This document shows, piece after piece, positions 14,805 through 53,531 of a stretch of DNA of 64,000 nt. The DNA comes from Brachyhypopomus gauderio. Lineage: Eukaryota; Chordata; Actinopteri; Gymnotiformes; Hypopomidae. The DNA lies in the NCBI RefSeq assembly GCF_052324685.1, contig NW_027506893.1:834501-898500 (forward strand), written 5' to 3'. A model generated the notes under the pieces. That model had not been told where the DNA came from and made no database searches. It saw nothing but the letters and a program-made list of their open reading frames with translations. The position numbers and the translations under genes are program-made. The first letter of the stretch is position 1. The number at the start of each line of letters is the position of its first letter.

Positions 14805-15443
14805 TCAAGAGATGGCACAGCTGTTGTGTTTCTTCATTGGAGGTTTCTCTCGTGTCCCGCTAGTGTCCCTTGTCATCATTTGTCTGCGTCTGCGCAGCGC
14901 CGGACTTACGCGGCTCGGCAACTTCACCTGTTCGAGCAAGTCCCGAAACACCGCGACCACGTTCTCGCCGGTGCGGGCGGACGTCTCCACGAACCCCGCT
15001 CCCCATTCCTCCTCCACCGTGCGCATCACATCCGCGGAGGCCAGGCGACTCCTGCTCTCCAGGTCGGCCTTGTTCTCCACCACTGTGATACCCGTGAACG
15101 TCTCCCCCTTGATCTCCAGAACCTCGTCTCGCAGCCGCTGCACCTCCTCCAGCGAGTCTCGCTCCTCGGCTGTGTACACGAGGGCGAACGCGTCCGCGGT
15201 GCGGATGCACAGAGCGCGCATCGCCGGGAAGGCGTAGCTGCCGCTCGTGTCCAAAACCTCCACGCGGATTCGCACGCCGTCCGTGTCGTACTCAAGCGCG
15301 TGCAGCTCCTCCACGGTGCGCGTGTATTTAAAGTCGAACCGATCGTGCAGGAACCGACTGATCAGGGCAGTTTTACCCACACCGGCGGCGCCCAAGAAGA
15401 CAAAGCGCACGGTCCGCTGCTCCTGTACCGACAGAGACATCAT
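14805..15443 (-). CDS. Ras-dva family small GTPase (single exon)
   Basis: Intronless 212-residue Ras-like GTPase. G1 is GAAGVGKT (18-25), the G3 box is DTSG (65-68), G4 is NKAD (124-127), G5 is ETSA, and the C-terminus is a basic KKHNS stretch then the CAAX box CAIS, so membrane anchoring by prenylation is expected. The signature parts FLGAAGVGKTALI, DTSGSYAFPAMR and LPSRVSPALRRRR match the Ras-dva family (dorsal-ventral-anterior), which acts in anterior ectoderm and FGF signalling in Xenopus. The residue equivalent to Ras Gly12 is Ala20 and that equivalent to Gln61 is Ser69, so slow GTP hydrolysis is possible. The first of two adjacent Met codons was used. RASD1/Rhes is a more distant alternative. 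Confidence 0.9.
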   Translation of the reverse strand: MMSLSVQEQRTVRFVFLGAAGVGKTALISRFLHDRFDFKYTRTVEELHALEYDTDGVRIRVEVLDTSGSYAFPAMRALCIRTADAFALVYTAEERDSLEEVQRLRDEVLEIKGETFTGITVVENKADLESRSRLASADVMRTVEEEWGAGFVETSARTGENVVAVFRDLLEQVKLPSRVSPALRRRRQMMTRDTSGTREKPPMKKHNSCAIS

Positions 15444-15610
15444 CGGAGAAACGAGATGTCTTAAGATGTTTCTTTCTTGAGGAGATGCGTTCTCTTCACT
15501 TAAACAGCAGATGGTCTACAGGTGGTCTTGATCATTCAAGAGCTTGAAAGAATCGTCCGTCCAACTATAACTCCGTAAGTTACTGGACTGTCGTGGGTTG
15601 CAAGCGAACG

Positions 15611-34170: not shown

Positions 34171-34802
34171 TGGGTGGGTGTTGGTGGGTACATGTGGGGG
34201 CTGTTTAACATGCATTATTTAAATTCTAGGTATGTCATTTTAGACTATAGTGTTGGTTGTACTAAACTTATTTGTACAGGGACTCAAATGTGTGGAATGG
34301 CCTGTAGTTTGTGTGCAGGCACATCCGGTGATTATAGATCGAATACGGTGCATTTTCTAAAAATACGTATCCAAGGCAACTTACAGTATGCTGTTATGGT
34401 GGGAGAATATCAGAATTCAGGTATCCGTGACAACTGGAAGTAAATCTATACAAACAAGTGGTCTGTGGTGCAAAATGTTTCTTCCAAAATATCTGACCAC
34501 TCTAAATCTTCGCCACGTCTTTTCCACACACGTGGCTTCCTCTAGATTACTCTAGTAACACAGTTTAGGTCGGTTAAGAAGGGAAATTGATGGAAAACAT
34601 ATCAGTGACTAATTTTAATTACAGAAAACCCAGTTCACTTTCCAACATGACCTGTCTGTCATGTGTGGTATGAATTTAAGTTAATGTGACTTTTAAACAT
34701 TGCATTGAGCGCAAAATAAACTTAGATGCTCTCTAGGATATAATGTCAAAATATTAGGATACCTTAGTTTAGCAGTTCCAATTGATCTTTTGTATTCATC
34801 AC

Positions 34803-34957
34803 CAGGGCCGGAGTGGGACACTTTTTCAGCCCGGGAGTTTCATGCCCAAATCCGGCCCAAAATTATTTCCCCCCCCCAATCGGCCCAAACTAGAGACTGA
34901 CATGAGCCGGCCCATCGGGAATCCTCCCGAATCTCCCGATTAGCCACTCCGGCTCTG
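34803..34957. mobile_element. Complete 155-bp hAT-type MITE with 8-bp target duplication
   Basis: Termini CAGGGCCGGAGTGG and CCACTCCGGCTCTG are inverted repeats with one mismatch. The direct repeat TTCATCAC flanks both sides (34795-34802 and 34958-34965). An 8-bp duplication is typical of hAT insertions. Related copies lie at 46297-46540. Confidence 0.92.
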
Positions 34958-35681
34958 TTCATCACTGCTAGTACTTTTTGGTCTAATTCAGATTCATAGT
35001 TATATTAATGAGAGGTTAAAGTTGAATGCACGGTTGTTAAATACATTATTTATAAATGTTGTATAAATACATAAGTTATTTTAGTAAACAGTGCCTTAAC
35101 TTTTAACTCAGGATTTAAAATCAGGGATTAGTGGTGTCAAAATCTCTTCAGGTGTTCTGGCTGTGAATGATGAGACCTGTGTGTGTTGCAAAGCATTTCA
35201 TGAATATTTGATGTTTCACGAGCAATGCGAATCTTTGACTTACCTATTGTTTGCACATAAACATACCGCATTTTAACCGTTAATCTCGCCTCTCTCTCGT
35301 TCGCCGTTAACCGTATCCGGCCTCAAGCTCCGGCTGCGAGCCCCTGAAGTGATGCGCTAATTGCAGGCAGATGGTTGCGCACTTTCCCCCCCGCGCAGCG
35401 CAACTCCGGCCTGGCGCGCGCACACGCACCACGCACACGTGCGTTTCATTTAGCGGACTTGCGCTACGCGTCCGCGGCGTTTCCGCTGGTGAGAGGCAGA
35501 GGCGCAGACACAGCTGTACGTGTACATATCTTACTGCCGATAGAGAGCCTGGACTTGGCGTGTCACAAACGATTAATCGGAGCTGTTGTTGGAGGCGACA
35601 GCAGCTTTCAGGGAGGTAAACATTTATTTATGGAAGTGACTCAGTGGACGCGTTTCTCACTGGAATGTTCCGTGTCACAAA

Positions 35682-36455
35682 ATGCGTCTTTTCGCCTATT
35701 GTTTCCTGTTTATTTTCATAACAGGTAAGTAAAATGAGTTTATAGATTGTAATATATATATATATATATATATATGCATAAAACCCTGTTAAAATATATT
35801 AAGATTATACTGTGACAAGCACAGTTCGTCCAGTTAAACCCATGAGAAATACGAGTAGATTATTCTTCACTCTTTTTCACTGCGTCTATACTTATATTCA
35901 ACTCTAGATAATATAGGGTGCTGAAACGTACTTAAAGCACGACAGATCTGTCGTTAAATGTTGTGTTTTTGTATAGGTAATGGGCTCTCAGAAGTGAACA
36001 GAGAGTGTGGCAGAAAAATAGACGTTGTTCGAGAGAGGAGCGGCTCTATTCGCTACTCCTTCCCCACCACTGTACCGACAAACAACGCTACACACAAGAT
36101 AGTGGACAACGGTGTTGAAAACCCGCTGGACGTTACTTGCGCTTGGACCGTCGACGCACGAGTGAACCAGACCGTGTGGATAGACGTCGTACACGTAGAC
36201 GAGCACGCGCAGCTCAGGATCACGTTTGGAGACCACACGGCTGTGAGGAGGCGCGCGAGCGGCGCGCGAGGGCTGTATTCGGGCACCGGGAGGACCACGG
36301 TGGAGTGGAGCTTGAGAAACGTCCAAGCACCGAGCAAATTAAACCTGAGTAAGTCTGATGCACAAATAATTAATACAGTCTTTTAATGTCTCCAAATTTA
36401 GATGTAGATCTAGTAATATATCGGCCCAGCAATATGGATATAGAATATAAAAAAA

Positions 36456-36509
<54 letters not shown>

Positions 36510-36636
36510 CAGTTCATGTGAATATCGCCTTAATGTATGGAGCTTGTGTGCCTGTCTGTGAGCATTTGAATCAGAGCATTTCCTTCAGCTGGAATTTGTT
36601 TGCAGTGAACATTCAAGGAATTTCTGGTTCCGTTAA

Positions 36637-36681
<45 letters not shown>

Positions 36682-39600
36682 CTCAGGATGGAACACGTCA
36701 GAAGACAGTAACGATCTAGCTCAGATCTCTTACACACACTCTGACAGCGACCCCGTGTCTCCCTCTCCGGACCCTCCGAACGGGGTGACCCGAACCTCAG
36801 ACATACTCGGGTTCGCGAGTGTGTCGCCTCGTACACACACGCGCTGGGGTGCGGGTGTACAACAGGGCGGAGTGTCTGGGCCTAACGATAAGAGCCGTCC
36901 CCCCTTTCCACAGGAAAACACACACAATGAGCAGGAAAGGTCTGGAGCCCTGATCCCTAACCTTACAAACACTGTCACACTGGCGCTTGCTGGCACACAA
37001 ACTCATTCCTTGGACTCTTATTCGTATACAAACGCACAAACTAGCCCTGCTTCGGTGCTCTCTAGGGCTGAACAAGTCTCCCGACACACATTGGCCCGAC
37101 GTCAAGATGTCGCCACAGTGAGAGGCGCGTATTTAAATACAGACGGTGACAATGCAGCGCACCAAATGACACACACAAGCGAGCTCGCACGAACGTCTGG
37201 CATGCGTATAGCTACAAAAATACACTCTCAAATGCACAATAGTTCAGGAAACGCTCCATTGAGTTCCACAGGTCCAGTGGCTAGCTCTCACACAGACAGC
37301 TCAGTTCACTCGGGCACAGACCAAGAGGCCTCGGACGCTGTCTCCAGTGTTCAGGGTGTTCACACTGTCACCTACAGAAGCGGCATCAAAATGACAGTGT
37401 CCACAGACGGTCGTGTCTTCAACGTAGCAGCCAATGGTGGCAAGAATCAGCCTCAGACAATTTTTACAGTCACACCTGGCAACAAAGCTTCAGGAGTTGA
37501 GACAGGCAGAACGAATCGCTACCCTAGATCAACTCACACGAACAAAAACACTTCTGATCAAATATATCCATCGGTGTTTCACGATTCAGGCACTATTAGT
37601 GGCGCTTCTGTTGCGATTTCACATAACCAGGCCAACAGATCTATGTTTAGTGATCAAGACAGCACTGCTCAGTCACAAACTGAAAGTCCAGTCACTGCAA
37701 ATAGCAAAGCCACAGAAAGATTACATTCAGTAGAACCTCACACACACAATTTATACGACACACACTCACCAAACACACACGCGCCACATAGCATCCATGC
37801 CACCCGAAAAGTGGACTCTCAGGACACCGCTAACACACACATCTCACACACCATCCAGAGTGAGCGCAGTACGACTGCTCTACAAACTAGTTCAACATTG
37901 CATCCCAAAACTACAAACCAATTAGGCCTGACAAAGACACTCAACCTTACCACTCACCATCGCTCTAACCCCTCTAGTGCCCCCAGGCCCCTCGTGGTTG
38001 CTACACCATCAGATTCGCCCGCAATTCTTGTTACGTCGCTGGAGGAGGAACCCGAGGACCATAAACCGTTCAGCTTCACTTCTTCCCCACGATCACCAAA
38101 CTCACAAAGCCAAGGTGGAGCGACAGAGGGTACGAATTCAGCCATGTTTCCATCTACCACCACCATTTCCTCAGTCCACACCAGCCGCCGAATTGATCCC
38201 ACTCCGATTCCCGAACTTTCATCCCAAGGCGCAGTTGCGACGGGAGTCTGGCGTGACGGCGCTAACGAAGAGCTCGGCGAGTCATACACACGCAAACGCC
38301 AGCAGGACCTGCCACGCACAATCGGCCCTCGCCGCTCGTCTACAGTAGCGCGCGGCGCTGAGATCAACACCACCGCGCCTCAGACCAGCCGTTTCTCTCC
38401 GACAGAGCACAGCGGTAGTGGTAACCATAGTAACTCCTTCCAGAGCGACGTTTCACTGGGTCCCACGACTCCCCGTAGCTTCTCTCTGCCTGACAGTAGT
38501 GGGACAACATCAATGGCGGTAACCCACAGTGTTGCGCGGACTCCTAGCAATGACCCCATGATGCCGACAGTTGCTAGCAATGTAGTTACTGTTAGCTCTG
38601 TGGGCAGCACAGCTGGAGAGGCTGTGAACACCTACAGACCTTTGAACGGGGACACAAACCAGAAACAGGTAACACGCTGCCCTGTAACAACTACGCCCAA
38701 ACCCACCCCAACACGGGACCCTGTAACAACTACCCTCAAACCCACCCCAACACGGCACCCAATAACTACCCCCAAACACACCCCAACACAGGACCCTGTA
38801 ACAACTACCCCCAAACCCACCCCAACACAGGACCCTGTAACAACTACCCCCAAACCCACCACTACATGGGACCCTGTAACGACTACCCCCAAACCCACCC
38901 CAACACAGCACCCTGTATCAACTACCCCCAAACCCACCCCAACACAGCACCCTGTATCAACTACCCCCAAACCCACCCCAGCACAGCACCCTGTATCGAC
39001 TACCCCCAAACCCACCCCAACACGGCACTCTTTTCCGAGCAGACATACTCCAGCCGTCCAAACACACGGTCCAATAGAGCAGCCAGGCACACACACCACA
39101 ACACAGCAGGTGAATACAGATTCCTCTGAGACTGGCGCACACACACCTTCCACAGCTGCCACGCCCAGGCTCCGCCCCTTCACTGTCAATCATGACAAAG
39201 ACTGGTCACATAAAGGGCGGGTCTTCATTGTGGAGGACCAACCGGCAATCATCAAAGGTGAGGTTTTCATTCTAAGGTCTATATCTGGGAGATTCTTCAA
39301 AGTGTAATAATATAAAGTAGCTGAATACGTTTTCTCTGTATATTCTGTGTTTTTTAGTGGAAACATTCCAAGTGCTTTTACAGGTGATCCTGGAACGAAA
39401 CTCTTCCTCCTTCATAGGGCTGACAGAGGTGATGAAAACTGTCATTTTTGCACCATGTCTGAACCTTAGACATAATATGCATAGACTAAGCCTGGAGTTC
39501 AGATTTATGCAGTTGCAATAAGCTTGAATAGTAAAGCTAAGAAACACTTTCAATTTGCCATGGATGCTCCATAAGCAGTAATAGCTCCATAAATTAATAC

Positions 39601-42600
39601 ACACACATCCATGAAATGGCTCATGCATTATCACTGCTTCTTTCATCAATAAGCTCAGCTGCCACTTGTCAGTATGAACAGCAGAGCATTAATCTTTTCA
39701 TGGACTTCCACGCCTTTATACTTCTTGGAGGGATGTTCTCTGATATGGTGAAGTCTAACATAGACTTTAGTGGAATCTGCACATAGTGTGCAATGCTGCA
39801 TACTAACATTTTGTTGTTTACCCTCCTGGGTGCAGGTTGAACCATTTCTACACAGAGTAGCAGGGTACCAGAACCAGCATCTCACCTGGCACAGGTAACT
39901 CTATTATATACAGGTGTGGTCAAAATTATTAGCACCCCTTATAAAACTGGAAAAACAAAAAGTCATCTCCGTGTTTCCGATGGTCAACTTCAGTCAGTCA
40001 AGGTCTTGCTTGGACAGAGCTCTCTGTGGATTGGCCAATGACCATTAATCCCACCATGATGAAGAACCATCACAGCAGTCTGTCTTCAGACGCTAAGAAG
40101 ACCAAAAGATGCCAGTTTAGCAACATCTGGGCTTCACAGAGATCTGGGCTTGTTGATAAATCTGATGATTTTCTTCACCAGTGTTTTTCAATCTTGTACT
40201 TGTCTTTCATATCATGCCCAGGTTTGTTTCTAACAGTCTCCTTGTACTTTGAGATAACGTTGTTTTGGATGCTTTGAAAGGCATTGAAATGGTAAAATGT
40301 TTTGCTACATTTATTGAAGGATTCCTTTGGGAACTAATAATTTTGACCACCTCAACATTCAATGTTTTACAGCAGTTTTGAAGATTGTTTTAAAAATACA
40401 AAATGTACTAAATAGGGGCCTTTATATTGATAAATATTTTACAGATTTCAGAGTTTAATGAATGACATTCACATTAGACAGAAATTCAGGAAAATGTCAC
40501 ATCACTTTGAGGGCTAGTTTTGCCTTTAAGAGACGAGACAAAGTAGCTGTTCTCTTGTCTGTTGGACTCATTAAAACTGCACTTAACTTATTAGATAAAT
40601 ACTTTTTAATTCCACTAGTTCCTTGACTGCTGATCTGATTACCAGACAAATATTAGTGGTTATGCAGTTTTGAAGTTTGCTTCATTGACTGGTGTGTTGA
40701 TGTTCAGCGGTGCAGTGATTCAGACAGTGGTCACGTTCCAGACCGGGGAGGCACGCTTCTGGCTGGGGAGGGCGGAGTCTCTTCTGTCCCAGGCAGGACT
40801 CAGTCCGCTCCCCAGGGAGGGGCTATTCGTAGGTGGTGTAAGGGTGAAAAACATCACTGTGGGAGGTGAGTTATCAGTATAGAGTACACCACAGCTTATT
40901 GACAGCTTATTGATGTGTATTGTTATGTCCTATTGTCAAATACATCTTATTTGTTATCTTTTATTCAGCAAATATGACATGAATATTGACAAACTTTCAA
41001 GTGTAGGATCAGGCTTATTTCTCTCTCTCTCTCTCTCCATCACACACACACACACACACACACACTTTTTTTCTCTCAGGCCTGCACTCTGACGTTTGCT
41101 CCTGGCTCTTCGAGTGCCCACTGGGTTTCCAGTGTGTGTCCTCCGTGGACAACGCCAGCTGCAGCTCGGTTTGCCGCTCCGAATACTGCAGGCACCACGG
41201 GATCTGCGTCCATCGGCCCGGCGAGCAGCCCGTCTGCCAGTGAGCCCCGCCCATCACGCTCGCATCACGCTCGCATTGGCTCACATCGGCTCACACCCCA
41301 GTGCTTAGCAGATCTGATGTGTGTGTTTCTTCAGGTGTCCCGTCGGGGAGGATTTCTGGTTCATGGGCCAGCGCTGTGACCTCCGCATGACCCGGCAGCG
41401 GTTGGTGGGCATGTGTGTTGGAGTTCTGGCTGTGGTGGCGGGCCTGATGGCGCTCTGCTCTTACCTGGCTGTACGTCGCTTTAAGAGCGTGGTGATTCAA
41501 GCCAAAGTGGACCAAACGCGAAGCAGGTACCACACACATGCACACACTTTCTATGTTTGTCTCTCACGCTGAGAAAATTAACTTTAGTTTGTTTAAACAC
41601 ACCTACACATTCCTGCAAAAGGTATTTTCCTGATTTTGTTATTGGAAAGCCTTGGCAGGAAATCGTGAGCCAGTTAAAACAAACCTTGCGTTTTGAGGAC
41701 AGAGCAGAGGGAGGGGCTGATGAAATAACACACACACCCAAGGTCAAGGTCATCAGCGTAATTCTCAACCTTTTTTTAGAAATAAATCTGATGACTGTGA
41801 TCGTCACACAGGAAGGTGATTGCTGCAGTGACAGAGAGACGTCTGTTTGGTCTGGTGGTGTGAGCAAATTTGCAACCCGACACACCTGAGTTGTGGTTCC
41901 TGACAGATCTGGGCTGAGACTGGGTTTGGGTGCTGCCAGATCTGGGCTGAGACTGGGTTTGGGTGCTGCCAGATCTGGGCTGAGACTGGGTTTGGATGCT
42001 GCCCTCAGCCTTACACCTACAAATGGTGTCAGAAATGGGATGACATCACGAGGCCGTCAGAATCAGAATCAATATTTTTATTGATCCCCAAGGGATCATT
42101 TTAAAATGATTTTTAAATGACACATGAAGTGAGGAGTGGTAGAGTTTGATGTCCACATGTAGGAATGACCTCCTCCCTTTGGGGTGGAATGAGTCTTTGG
42201 CTAACCCTGCATCTGTGTCTTGTACAGCGGGTGGGAGACACTGTCCATAATGGACTTCAGCTTAGACTGCGTCCTCCTCTGAGACACTGTGGTCAGGACA
42301 GTGCCCATGATCAAAGGCCTAATTTCTGCTTAGTTTCATATAATCTGTGGTCTATATCTTTCTTGGTATTGTCAAAAGAACACACACCATTTAGCTAGAA
42401 TCGACATTGAACCAAGCAGAGGTAAACAGCACAGAGGTCTGGCCACATTTCAGTTTGGTTGCACTCTGTGCATATGTGTGCACGTGTGTGTGTGCGTGTG
42501 CACGTGTGTGTTTGCTCGGGCGCGTTTGCGTGAAAGTTATCGCAGGTTTAACCACTTTGATGAGTTGTCGGCTCGTTTCTGGGGAAGGTCGTGGCCCGGG

Positions 42601-43326
42601 TCGGAGGACTCGCTAGATAACCCCACCTTCACCCGCTCTGACGAATTACTGCACATGAGGGCCCTGGATCGCACATGCTGTTACCATGACGACACACTCT
42701 CCATCGTCTCCACCTACCAGGGCAGCACAACACACCTCAGTACCGTATATCCTCACAGGTATCTATGACCTCCAGTTAAATAGCTGCTATACCATGTTCA
42801 GTTTGTGTGCTATGCTCTATGTAATATATAACCATGTATATCATATCCATACTTCAACACTTTCCAGTTGTTAAACCTGATAGTGTTTGTGTACATGTGT
42901 GAATGGGGGTGTGTTTTGTTTAGTTCTCAGTATCACTGGAACCTGAGCAACTACAGCTTAGCGGATTGTGTGATAGACTCGGGAAAGGCCAGTGATCTGT
43001 CTGTATGCAGCTGGCCAATCGAGCCAATTCAGTGGACACCGTTCCCCCTATTACAGCAGCTGAACAGAAACACTAATTCAGTAAGTCACGTTTGCCCACA
43101 TATAGACAGACAATACACATACACACACACACAAAATTCCTGCCCTGTTTTAAATGTAAATTACGTAAGTCTCACAGACTCCCACAAAAAACACACTTCC
43201 ATCCAAATCCCTTCCTTGTTGTAAGTGTTCAAGGTTTTCTTTGGCTCTCAGGTGAAGGTTTCACGTCCTCGTTCGTATTGTGAGGGCATGGAGCTGGTGG
43301 ACCTGGAGAAGAGCTGGACCGCATGA
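35682..43326 (+). CDS. Unnamed CUB-like/mucin/SEA-like/EGF transmembrane protein (11 exons)
   Basis: Exons: 35682-35724, 35977-36348, 36687-39257, 39358-39428, 39836-39894, 40708-40865, 41080-41239, 41335-41526, 42537-42758, 42924-43080, 43252-43326. All phases join into 1359 residues. In order: signal peptide (MRLFAYCFLFIFITG), a CUB-like module with only the first cysteine pair (about 25-135), a Ser/Thr-rich mucin region of over 800 residues mostly in one 2.6-kb exon with PVTTTPKPTPTQ-type repeats, a SEA-like module (about 985-1090; GAVIQTVVTF at the place of the GSVVV cleavage site), one or two EGF-like modules (CQCPVGEDFWFMGQRC), one membrane helix (about 1168-1191), and a tail of about 168 residues ending in EKSWTA. 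The EGF-TM layout resembles IMPG2 and membrane mucins, but the tail does not. Not recognised as a named gene. Confidence 0.85.
36458..36508. repeat. (TA)n microsatellite
   Basis: About 50 bases of (TA)n in the short intron before the mucin exon. A (GT)n tract at about 36637-36676 follows, close to the acceptor at 36685-36686. Confidence 0.9.
38679..39030 (+). repeat. 39-bp coding minisatellite in the mucin exon
   Basis: About nine units of 39 bp coding PVTTTPKPTPTQD or PVSTTPKPTPTQH, one unit shorter by a codon (PITTPKHTPTQ). These Thr/Pro-rich units are expected to carry dense O-glycans. Confidence 0.9.
39909..40355. mobile_element. Non-autonomous Tc1/mariner-like element
   Basis: The left end GGTGTGGTCAAAATTATTAG and the right end CTAATAATTTTGACCACC are inverted repeats about 445 bp apart, within an intron of the mucin-type gene. 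The interior has no intact transposase. TA dinucleotides adjoin the left end. Confidence 0.75.
41907..42003. repeat. 33-bp tandem repeat, 3 copies
   Basis: The unit starts AGATCTGGGCTGAGACTGGG. The third copy has one base change near its end. Located in the intron after the membrane-spanning exon. Confidence 0.9.
42058..42320 (-). mobile_element. LINE 3'-end fragment (RTE/Rex-like)
   Basis: Begins with a 'tttttattgatccccaaggg'-type tail, typical of the 3' ends of some fish LINEs, then continues into degenerate sequence (gtccataatggacttcagc) resembling the reverse-transcriptase 3' region read antisense. The family assignment is tentative. Confidence 0.5.
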
Positions 43327-43962: not shown

Positions 43963-44038
43963 GCTATGCAACACGGCTCTGAGAATCCCAGTCCCCTTGA
44001 GGGCTTGAGAAACACAACAATGGCCTATAGCTATACAT

Positions 44039-45065
44039 TACCACTGGACCAGAGGGACGAGGACATATATTACAGCTATACTTGTCTACTGGACCAGAGG
44101 GACGAGGACATATATTACAGCTATACATGTCTACTGGACCAGAGGGACAAGGACATATATTACAGCTATACGTGTCTACTGGACCAGAGGGACAAGGACA
44201 TATATTACAGCTATACGTGTCTACTGGACCAGAGGGACGAGGACATATATTACAGCTATACGTGTCTACTGGACCAGAGAGACAAGGACATATATTACAG
44301 CTATACGTGTCTACTGGACCAGAGAGACGAGGACATATATTATAGCTATACGTGCCTACTGGACCAGAGGGACGAGGACATATATTATAGCTATACGTGT
44401 CTACTGGACCAGAGAGACGAGGACATATATTACAGCTATACGTGTCTACTGGACCAGAGGGACAAGGACATATATTACAGCTATACGTGTCTACTGGACC
44501 AGAGGGACGAGGACATATATTACAGCTATACGTGTCTACTGGACCAGAGAGACAAGGACATATATTATAGCTATACGTGTCTACTGGACCAGAGAGACGA
44601 GGACATATATTATAGCTATACGTGTCTACTGGACCAGAGGGACGAGGACATATATTATAGCTATACGTGTCTACTGGACCAGAGGGACGAGGACATATAT
44701 TACAGCTATACGTGTCTACTGGACCAGAGGGACGAGGACATATATTACAGCTATACGTGTCTACTGGACCAGAGAGACGAGGACATATATTACAGCTATA
44801 CGTGTCTACTGGACCAGAGGGACGAGGACATATATTATAGCTATACGTGTCTACTGGACCAGAGGGCCGAGGACATATATTACAGCTATAGACTACTGGA
44901 CCAGAGGGACGAGGACATATATTATAACTATACATGTCTACTGGACCAGAGGGACGAGGACATATATTATAGCTATACATGTCTACTGGACCAGAGGGAC
45001 GAGGACATATATTACAGCTATACATGCCTACTGGACCAGAGGGACGAGGACATATATTATAGCAC
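44039..45065. repeat. 45-bp minisatellite, about 23 copies
   Basis: The unit starts TGTCTACTGGACCAGAGGGA and continues 'cgaggacatatattacagctatacg'. Variation is confined to a few positions (gac-gag/gac-aag, agg/aga, tac/tat), and one unit has a 3-base deletion near 44890. Because 45 is a multiple of three and the unit lacks stops, the array is open in at least two plus frames and one minus frame. The plus frame reads CLLDQRDEDIYYSYT; the minus frame reads CNICPRPSGPVDTYS. Confidence 0.95.
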
Positions 45066-46296
45066 CACTCAAACTGGACATTTTCAGGAATTAATCTTCC
45101 ATTTGATTTGTATTTACAACTTGTATTTACTTGTCAAACATCCACAGAGTATATACTCTCTCTCACACTTCATTTTTTATTTTTCTTTTCAAATAAAACA
45201 GAAGGAGAGGAGTAAAAATGTTATGTGCTTACAGGTAATGAACAGGTTTCACGTTATTCATATTATACGGGTCTTCATAATCGCTCCCATTAGGACACAG
45301 CACACACCCCAGATTGGCTGTGATAAGAACTGGAGTTCATATCTTCCAATAACATGCAGAATAGATGTAGCCCATTTGATGTTTCAGTAATGTCCATTAC
45401 AAAATACCCATAAAAACATACGACAGCAGTTCAAAAGGAGAACAATAATAACGATGATGTTTCCATAATGTAGCGGGTGGGTAGATATATTTGGCTTCAA
45501 ATTTGAAACTAGGAGATCTGCAAATGTAGAAACCAATAAGCAGGGGTTTCTTAGCTTTTTTGAACTTGGCTTGGTTTTTAACTAACTGAGTTTTGGCTGC
45601 TATAATTATTCTTGTTTTTTCTCCTTGGGTGGGTATAATTACAACACAACATACATCACATTGACATGGGTAGCCCTTACTAAAAATCACTGGTAAATTC
45701 ACTGATAAAACAAACAGACCCAACATTACGAACATTTGTCTTGTATTTGGGGTAATGGAATATAATTTGAAGTAGATCTGAGGACGGGATTATTTCAGGA
45801 GACTTTGGCTTTTTTTTAAAAACCTTTTGCGCCCCCCTTTGTCCATTTTGTGCATTGCACCAGAAAAAAGCCTCATGTACCTGGAGACCTTCAGTTCTCT
45901 ACTTTAGCAGCGCTTAACCACCAAGTTGTCTTCTGAGATACACTACAGACAACAATATTATAAAAAAATAAATGTCAGATTTGTAGAGAAGGTTCCAAAA
46001 CAAAAAGACCACTCTACAGCGCCCCTAGAGGACGTTCAGTGTTACCCAGGAAAGTTCTCTATAAATCTGTTACACAAACATGAAATATTTTTCCAGAAAT
46101 AATTGACGTCAATAATTGACGAAAGGAAGCAATCCTTTCACCCTTTCATGTCCCAGCAGGTGCGTTACTGGTATGACAGCCCTTTCTTACTGGTGTGGTG
46201 TCCTGTACTCATATTCCATATAATGAGCCCAGCTTGGCTAGAATGATCGGGACCATGTGGAGATCTGTCCATTTTTCCATAGTCTTTGGTCTTGTC
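45066..46296. other. Intergenic, right of the minisatellite
   Basis: No exon, RNA gene or recognisable element seen. AT-rich single-copy-looking DNA. Confidence 0.4.
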
Positions 46297-46540
46297 CAGG
46301 GCCGGAGTGGGACACATTTTCAGCCCGGGAGTTTCATGTCCAAATCCGGCCCAAAATTATTTTTCCCTCCCAATCGGCCCAAACTAGAGACCAGGGCCGG
46401 AGTGGGACACTTTTTCAGCCCGGGAGTTTCATGCCCAAATCCGGCCCAAAATTATTTTTCCCTCCCAATCGGCCCAAACTAGAGACTGACATGAGCCGGC
46501 CCATCGGGAATCCTCCCGAATCTCCCGATTAGCCACTCCT
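46297..46540. mobile_element. Two hAT-type MITE copies joined head to tail
   Basis: A first copy starts CAGGGCCGGAGTGG at 46297 and stops after about 95 bp. A second copy restarts with the same terminus at 46392 and runs to a truncated right end (CCACTCC) near 46539. Both match the 34803-34957 element closely. No perfect 8-bp flanking duplication is visible. Confidence 0.85.

Positions 46541-46691: not shown

Positions 46692-53531
<6,840 letters not shown>

Follow-up and report, generated by a model that had tools for sequence, protein, structure and literature searches.

A mucin-like membrane protein gene of Brachyhypopomus gauderio with a CUB-like first module and a possible kinship to IMPG2-type proteins

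IMPG2 (interphotoreceptor matrix proteoglycan 2, of the retina) carries two SEA domains, the second of which (SEA2) holds a GSxxV site (PMC10558372 and PMC9478142, in the portions consulted), the motif found in self-cleaving SEA domains (PMC9478142, same portion). Membrane mucins of the MUC13/MUC3/MUC12/MUC17 type combine a signal peptide, a proline-, threonine- and serine-rich (PTS) region usually encoded by a single large exon, SEA and EGF modules, a transmembrane (TM) helix and an inner tail, and no CUB-like head is described for them in the consulted part of PMC1552070; HEG1, treated in the same part, is mucin-like with EGF, a TM helix and an inner tail, and no SEA domain is reported for it there. 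CUB modules as such are already known in membrane mucins, at the N-terminus of sea anemone mucin4-like proteins that are built on a NIDO-AMOP-VWD core (PMC9080433, in the portion consulted). Here we describe a gene that shares features with each of these systems, located within 64,000 nucleotides of the fish Brachyhypopomus gauderio (contig NW_027506893.1, positions 834,501 to 898,500; hereafter the window, to which coordinates refer unless another contig is named).

The gene spans 35682-43326 of the forward strand in eleven exons, with a predicted spliced length of 4071 nt (1356 codons plus stop). GT-AG borders are present at all ten introns, exon phases are consistent, and the joined gene model reads in a single frame, with an in-frame stop at 35637 upstream of the ATG. 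The parts follow one another as a signal peptide, a CUB-like exon, a serine/threonine/proline (S/T/P)-rich exon, a SEA-like module, EGF, a single TM helix and a 165-residue tail. We put at about 0.57 the probability that the product, as judged from its sequence, is a membrane-tethered, mucin-like protein, akin to the SEA-EGF-EGF-TM proteins of the IMPG2 type but divergent from them, in which a CUB-like head was gained or kept. The preliminary description of this DNA had proposed an eleven-exon gene of consistent phase, with its mucin part on one 2.6-kb exon and a non-repetitive tail behind the membrane, and all of this is borne out (exon 3 measures 2571 nt). As for the modules it had named, EGF is upheld by Pfam; the CUB and SEA labels are fair as descriptions, but no sequence search confirmed them.

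Evidence for the proposed kinship comes from the membrane-proximal part. Exon 7 (41080-41239, phase 1-2) encodes a short cysteine module and the first part of the EGF, and exon 8 (41335-41526, phase 2-2) the end of the EGF, the TM helix (residues 1171-1191 by hydropathy, approximately 41411-41473) and the start of the inner tail. Sent alone, the EGF passes the Pfam cut-off of 21.5 with 23.4 bits; inside a longer query it stays under it with 20.2. Searches of the animal's own genome covered a 796.5-Mb assembly of 840 contigs with exon 2, the SEA-EGF part and the tail, but not exon 3, as queries, and only the best candidates were scored. With the end of human IMPG2 as query, they found an impg2-like gene (L052, at C23; expectation value (E) 8.4e-15), followed by weak rows for an impg-like locus (L053, 0.41) and a meprin-like gene (L054, 0.78). 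Aligned to the impg2-like gene, the EGF-TM part encoded by exons 7-8 scores 126; shuffled versions average 30.4, and none of 1000 reaches that value. This likeness, overlooked by the preliminary description, is the best among five own-genome sequences, the others being meprin-like L054 (114, or 119 with slightly longer ends), L053 (105), FAT-like L010 (87) and MUC13-like L039 (57, for a sequence pieced together manually out of several reading frames).

Intron phases agree as well: the borders SEA|EGF, EGF|TM and TM|tail lie in phases 1, 2 and 2 in both the gene and the impg2-like gene, which further share a long low-complexity ectodomain exon, the SEA-EGF-EGF-TM order (with a SEA-like module here) and an NPxF motif in the first inner exon (NPTF here, NPMF in L052; NPVF in that of L053). 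Three further genes, meprin-like L054, L053 and the MUC13-like one, also have a phase-2 EGF|TM border, and the EGF-TM part therefore marks a wider group. The meprin-like gene has, in addition, an EGF of the same C-x-V-G-x-x-W-x-x-G-x-x-C type, but its ectodomain reads as metalloprotease and MAM-type, and neither a mucin nor a SEA part was seen in it. The proposed kinship to IMPG2 stands on score, chain of phases and tail motif jointly. What sets the gene apart from IMPG2 is its CUB-like head, a shortened first EGF, an extra SEA intron, a different tail, and the recognition of one divergent SEA-like module with alanine at the critical position (exon 3 was not sent whole to Pfam). No convincing second copy of the SEA-EGF-TM part was found in the genome (best non-self E 0.57); L010, considered as a paralog, reads as a generic FAT-like EGF-TM sequence and was set aside. 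L053 (C17:15513500-15523400) has an impg-like EGF-TM part for which no clean TM exon end was found, and is possibly a decaying paralog.

A SEA fold for exons 4 (39358-39428), 5 (39836-39894) and 6 (40708-40865) is suggested by gene structure, through a phase-0 and a phase-2 intron; the position of the module and a G-A-V-I strand fit it as well. Among 21 SEA matches in the genome at E<=10, 15 fall in the 12 loci that were compared; L031, L032, L033, L035 and L036 were left out, and L034 (the same as L048) was dropped by eye as not SEA-like. All 13 other first-half SEA exons tested (12 loci, L038 twice) end in a phase-0 consensus donor; exon 4, the first part of the module here, also ends in phase 0, with a donor (gtgatg) outside the pattern used for the others. 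A phase-2 intron lies just before the G-S strand in 6 of the 8 other SEA genes in which that strand was located (a set without L039, L040, L045 and L047), and exon 6 likewise starts after a phase-2 intron, one base ahead of G-A-V-I. Anchors and strands were chosen by eye, and the AG acceptor was taken as the one after the pyrimidine tract among several per gene, L042 and L046 having a nearer alternative. At 40709, G-A-V-I-Q replaces G-S-x-x-V, so that the SEA serine is an alanine and the GSxxV site is absent; self-cleavage of the SEA-like module is therefore unlikely, as far as its sequence tells. Matches of the SEA part alone to sequences in the PDB (beta-lactam synthetase, 0.076; CD2-associated protein, 0.69) were dismissed as chance, as was beta-lactam synthetase (0.44) with the SEA-EGF-tail query, for which EGF chains from E 0.14 were kept; no SEA match was among the PDB sequences found for exons 4-6. 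Within the SEA sample, L038 (C30:458500-468400) holds a near-identical SEA exon pair about 2.5 kb apart that looks like a recent tandem duplication. Three similar SEA exons across 200 kb (L039, L045 and L047; C3:20.40-20.60 Mb), the first of which reads as MUC13-like, may represent an expanded family.

The same SEA introns bear on a different descent, in which the gene would belong with MUC13, MUC3 and MUC17 among the SEA-type membrane mucins, outside IMPG, and its EGF would have come to look like that of the IMPG/meprin subtype. The phase-2 SEA intron occurs in six non-IMPG SEA genes and is absent from the impg2-like gene (and from L043), the MUC13-like gene has, for its last EGF part, an exon beginning in phase 2, and a large single PTS exon is what this line would predict. 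Against this descent, which we regard as rather unlikely, the EGF scores only 57 with the hand-joined MUC13-like sequence versus 126 with the impg2-like gene. The succession of signal peptide, PTS region, SEA or SEA-like module, EGF, TM and tail is common to the gene and to MUC13, MUC3, MUC12 and MUC17, but the EGF part is little like that of L039 and the tail is, by eye, unlike the L039 frames.

Several further observations weigh against the reading as an IMPG2-type, mucin-like relative. Exons 4-6 have no Pfam SEA match; the own-genome SEA search gave none of its 21 matches in this gene; and the SEA part scores 25 with SEA2 of the impg2-like gene, against a shuffle mean of 23.9 (386 of 1000 shuffles reach it). 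The phase-2 SEA intron, as noted, is missing from that gene. The meprin-like gene has the same EGF intron and a nearly equal score, and the EGF by itself therefore does not point to IMPG2 in particular; EGF domains generally score above shuffled sequences, as the FAT-like score illustrates, so shuffling is a soft control for them. The NPVF of L053 is one of three downstream NPx[YF] frames, the other two being broken by stops. A CUB fold of exon 2 is unproven, and S+T in exon 3 amounts to 20-36% per 100 residues (17 overlapping windows, residues 141-1040), which is low for a classic mucin.

If the product is nevertheless an IMPG2-type relative, the S/T/P-rich region would form an O-glycosylated stalk that keeps the CUB-like head away from the cell, and the SEA-like and EGF modules would form a stem at the membrane. 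With alanine in place of the SEA serine, that stem would be expected to stay one covalent piece rather than cleave itself into two subunits. The NPxF motif of the inner tail might bind an adaptor of the PTB/FERM type, and with such an adaptor in place the protein would be held, sorted or linked to the cortex in a receptor-like manner. What the sequence shows directly is anatomy and likeness: the gene model, the succession of parts, the EGF, the hydropathy of the TM helix, the missing serine, the resemblance of exons 7-8 to the impg2-like gene in sequence and phase, and the NPxF motif. We infer, rather than observe, the glycosylation, the CUB and SEA folds, the lack of cleavage, the adaptor binding and the type of cell that would carry the protein.

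The tail itself (165 residues, with 6 Tyr, 6 Trp and 5 Cys) continues from exon 8 through exon 9 (42546-42758), exon 10 (42924-43080) and exon 11 (43252-43326, with the stop codon). NPTF lies at 42619-42630 in exon 9; an NPx[FY] motif arose in 122 of 5000 shuffles of the tail. Exon 10 contains a stretch WPIEPIQWTPFPLLQQL and, at 42976-42993, DSGKAS, the one DSGxxS match of the tail, a pattern that arose in 33 of 5000 shuffles. NPxF-type motifs bind PTB/FERM adaptors, DSGxxS-type motifs bind beta-TrCP, and the tail of HEG1, with which the gene has mucin-like character, EGF, TM and inner tail in common, binds KRIT1. A signalling or adaptor role of the present tail is only inferred, neither motif being proof of it. 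The sole Pfam row for the tail, YmjE at E 0.12, was taken as chance, and the genome holds no convincing second copy (best non-self E 0.27); L015, tried as a paralog of gene parts, reads as a transposase frame.

At the other end of the protein, exon 1 (35682-35724) provides the start codon and signal peptide (residues ~1-19), recognized from the ATG and the hydrophobic N-terminus, and exon 2 (35977-36348, phase 1-1) the CUB-like module (residues ~25-138). Its only two cysteines form what we take to be a CUB-like pattern without the second pair. A Pfam search of exon 2 gave neither a CUB nor a SEA match, no further match to it was found in the genome, and its PDB-sequence matches (a dynein arm light chain, 0.35; antibody light chains, 0.56-1.5) were dismissed as chance. 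The 116-residue peptide of this single exon, modelled by AlphaFold2 with no alignment, gave a poor, all-beta model with a mean predicted local distance difference test (pLDDT) score of 54.9. In a Foldseek search of the PDB with this model, none of 1257 matches reached E<=0.001; 19 among the 50 matches listed are CUB-bearing chains, as judged from titles and chain lengths, the best at E 0.07. These weak rows give no more than a hint of a CUB fold. The sea anemone mucin4-like proteins are membrane mucins that likewise begin with CUB domains (PMC9080433, in the portion consulted), but their NIDO-AMOP-VWD core is not seen in this gene.

The head could also be the working part of a receptor-like glycoprotein in which the S/T/P-rich region is a mere linker, CUB and SEA being combined as in proteins of the ADGRG6/matriptase type. 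The frequency of CUB-bearing chains among the listed Foldseek matches and the low S+T of exon 3 would suit such a receptor; a protease, PTX or seven-transmembrane part is, however, neither seen by reading nor returned as a Pfam row (within the scope given above for exon 3), and the CUB fold on which the idea depends is not established. We consider it improbable.

Exon 3 (36687-39257) encodes the S/T/P-rich, mucin-like region, in which S+T+P make up 39.5% of residues; O-glycosylation would be expected here. An in-frame tandem repeat of 39 nt (13 residues, PVTTTPKPTPTxx) runs through about nine copies at 38671-39024, and the list of SG sites includes EHSGSG (residues 712-717; 38405-38422), which, presuming the consensus, may be a glycosaminoglycan site. 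Some low-complexity TH stretches of this exon resemble CA repeats, and with the weak donor of exon 4 they could betray a gene in decay, or exons that do not belong together and were joined in error. Such an origin is very improbable, since the eleven exons are stop-free in a single frame, the 39-nt repeat keeps one frame and the exon phases match those of other genes. GC at third codon positions is moreover raised in 4 of the 5 coding parts: it is 50% in the S/T/P part but 62-84% in those for CUB, SEA, EGF and TM plus tail, with intron GC at 29-46% in nine introns and 58% in the tenth.

Among the open-licence PMC papers listed by the literature searches, none describes the gene in its title or the start of its abstract, and the combination of CUB domain, SEA domain, EGF, mucin-like region and cytoplasmic tail returned nothing in that literature; we expect that automated ortholog annotations may well exist. 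What appears new is the EGF-TM likeness of a mucin-like gene to the impg2-like gene, together with the shared phases and NPxF. A wider proposal, doubtful as a whole and made only tentatively, sees here a receptor-like mucin of vertebrates that has no name so far and forms a third, ancient branch of the IMPG/SEA-EGF-TM family. It would combine a CUB-like head with a stem that is permanently uncleaved and an inner tail, strongly conserved, that binds an adaptor; fish would have retained it between palb2 and cacng3, and mammals would have lost it. Should the same tail occur in other vertebrates, this would be an unstudied receptor-like surface mucin with a fixed address, kin to a retinal disease gene family; if confined to close relatives of the species, it would be one more divergent membrane mucin. 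With its alanine in place of the SEA serine, the gene offers a simple way to test what membrane mucins gain by cleaving themselves.

The location between palb2 and cacng3, as first proposed, is confirmed on the downstream side, where one exon on the opposite strand matches the gamma-3 chain (2.1e-30). The palb2 identity of the upstream neighbour is supported by a weak named match to PALB2 in 2w18 (2.8e-4), yet a WDR24 chain scored 1.1e-5 over 19 residues. Further upstream, a single-exon open reading frame at 14805-15515 (reverse strand) reads as a small Ras-like GTPase, with a prenylation-type C-terminus, CAIS. Downstream of the gene, a 45-bp minisatellite (44029-45063; ~23 copies, 95% matches) can be read through in several frames of either strand because 45 is a multiple of 3, and its frames could be mistaken for a gene. 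Fragments resembling a non-LTR (long terminal repeat) reverse transcriptase lie at 50008-50523 and 52026-52842 on the reverse strand, amid cacng3-like exon stretches. A short repeat, translated GRSGTxFQPGSFMxKSGPKLF, flanks the gene at 34773-34943 and at 46177-46532, the latter site containing two tandem copies.

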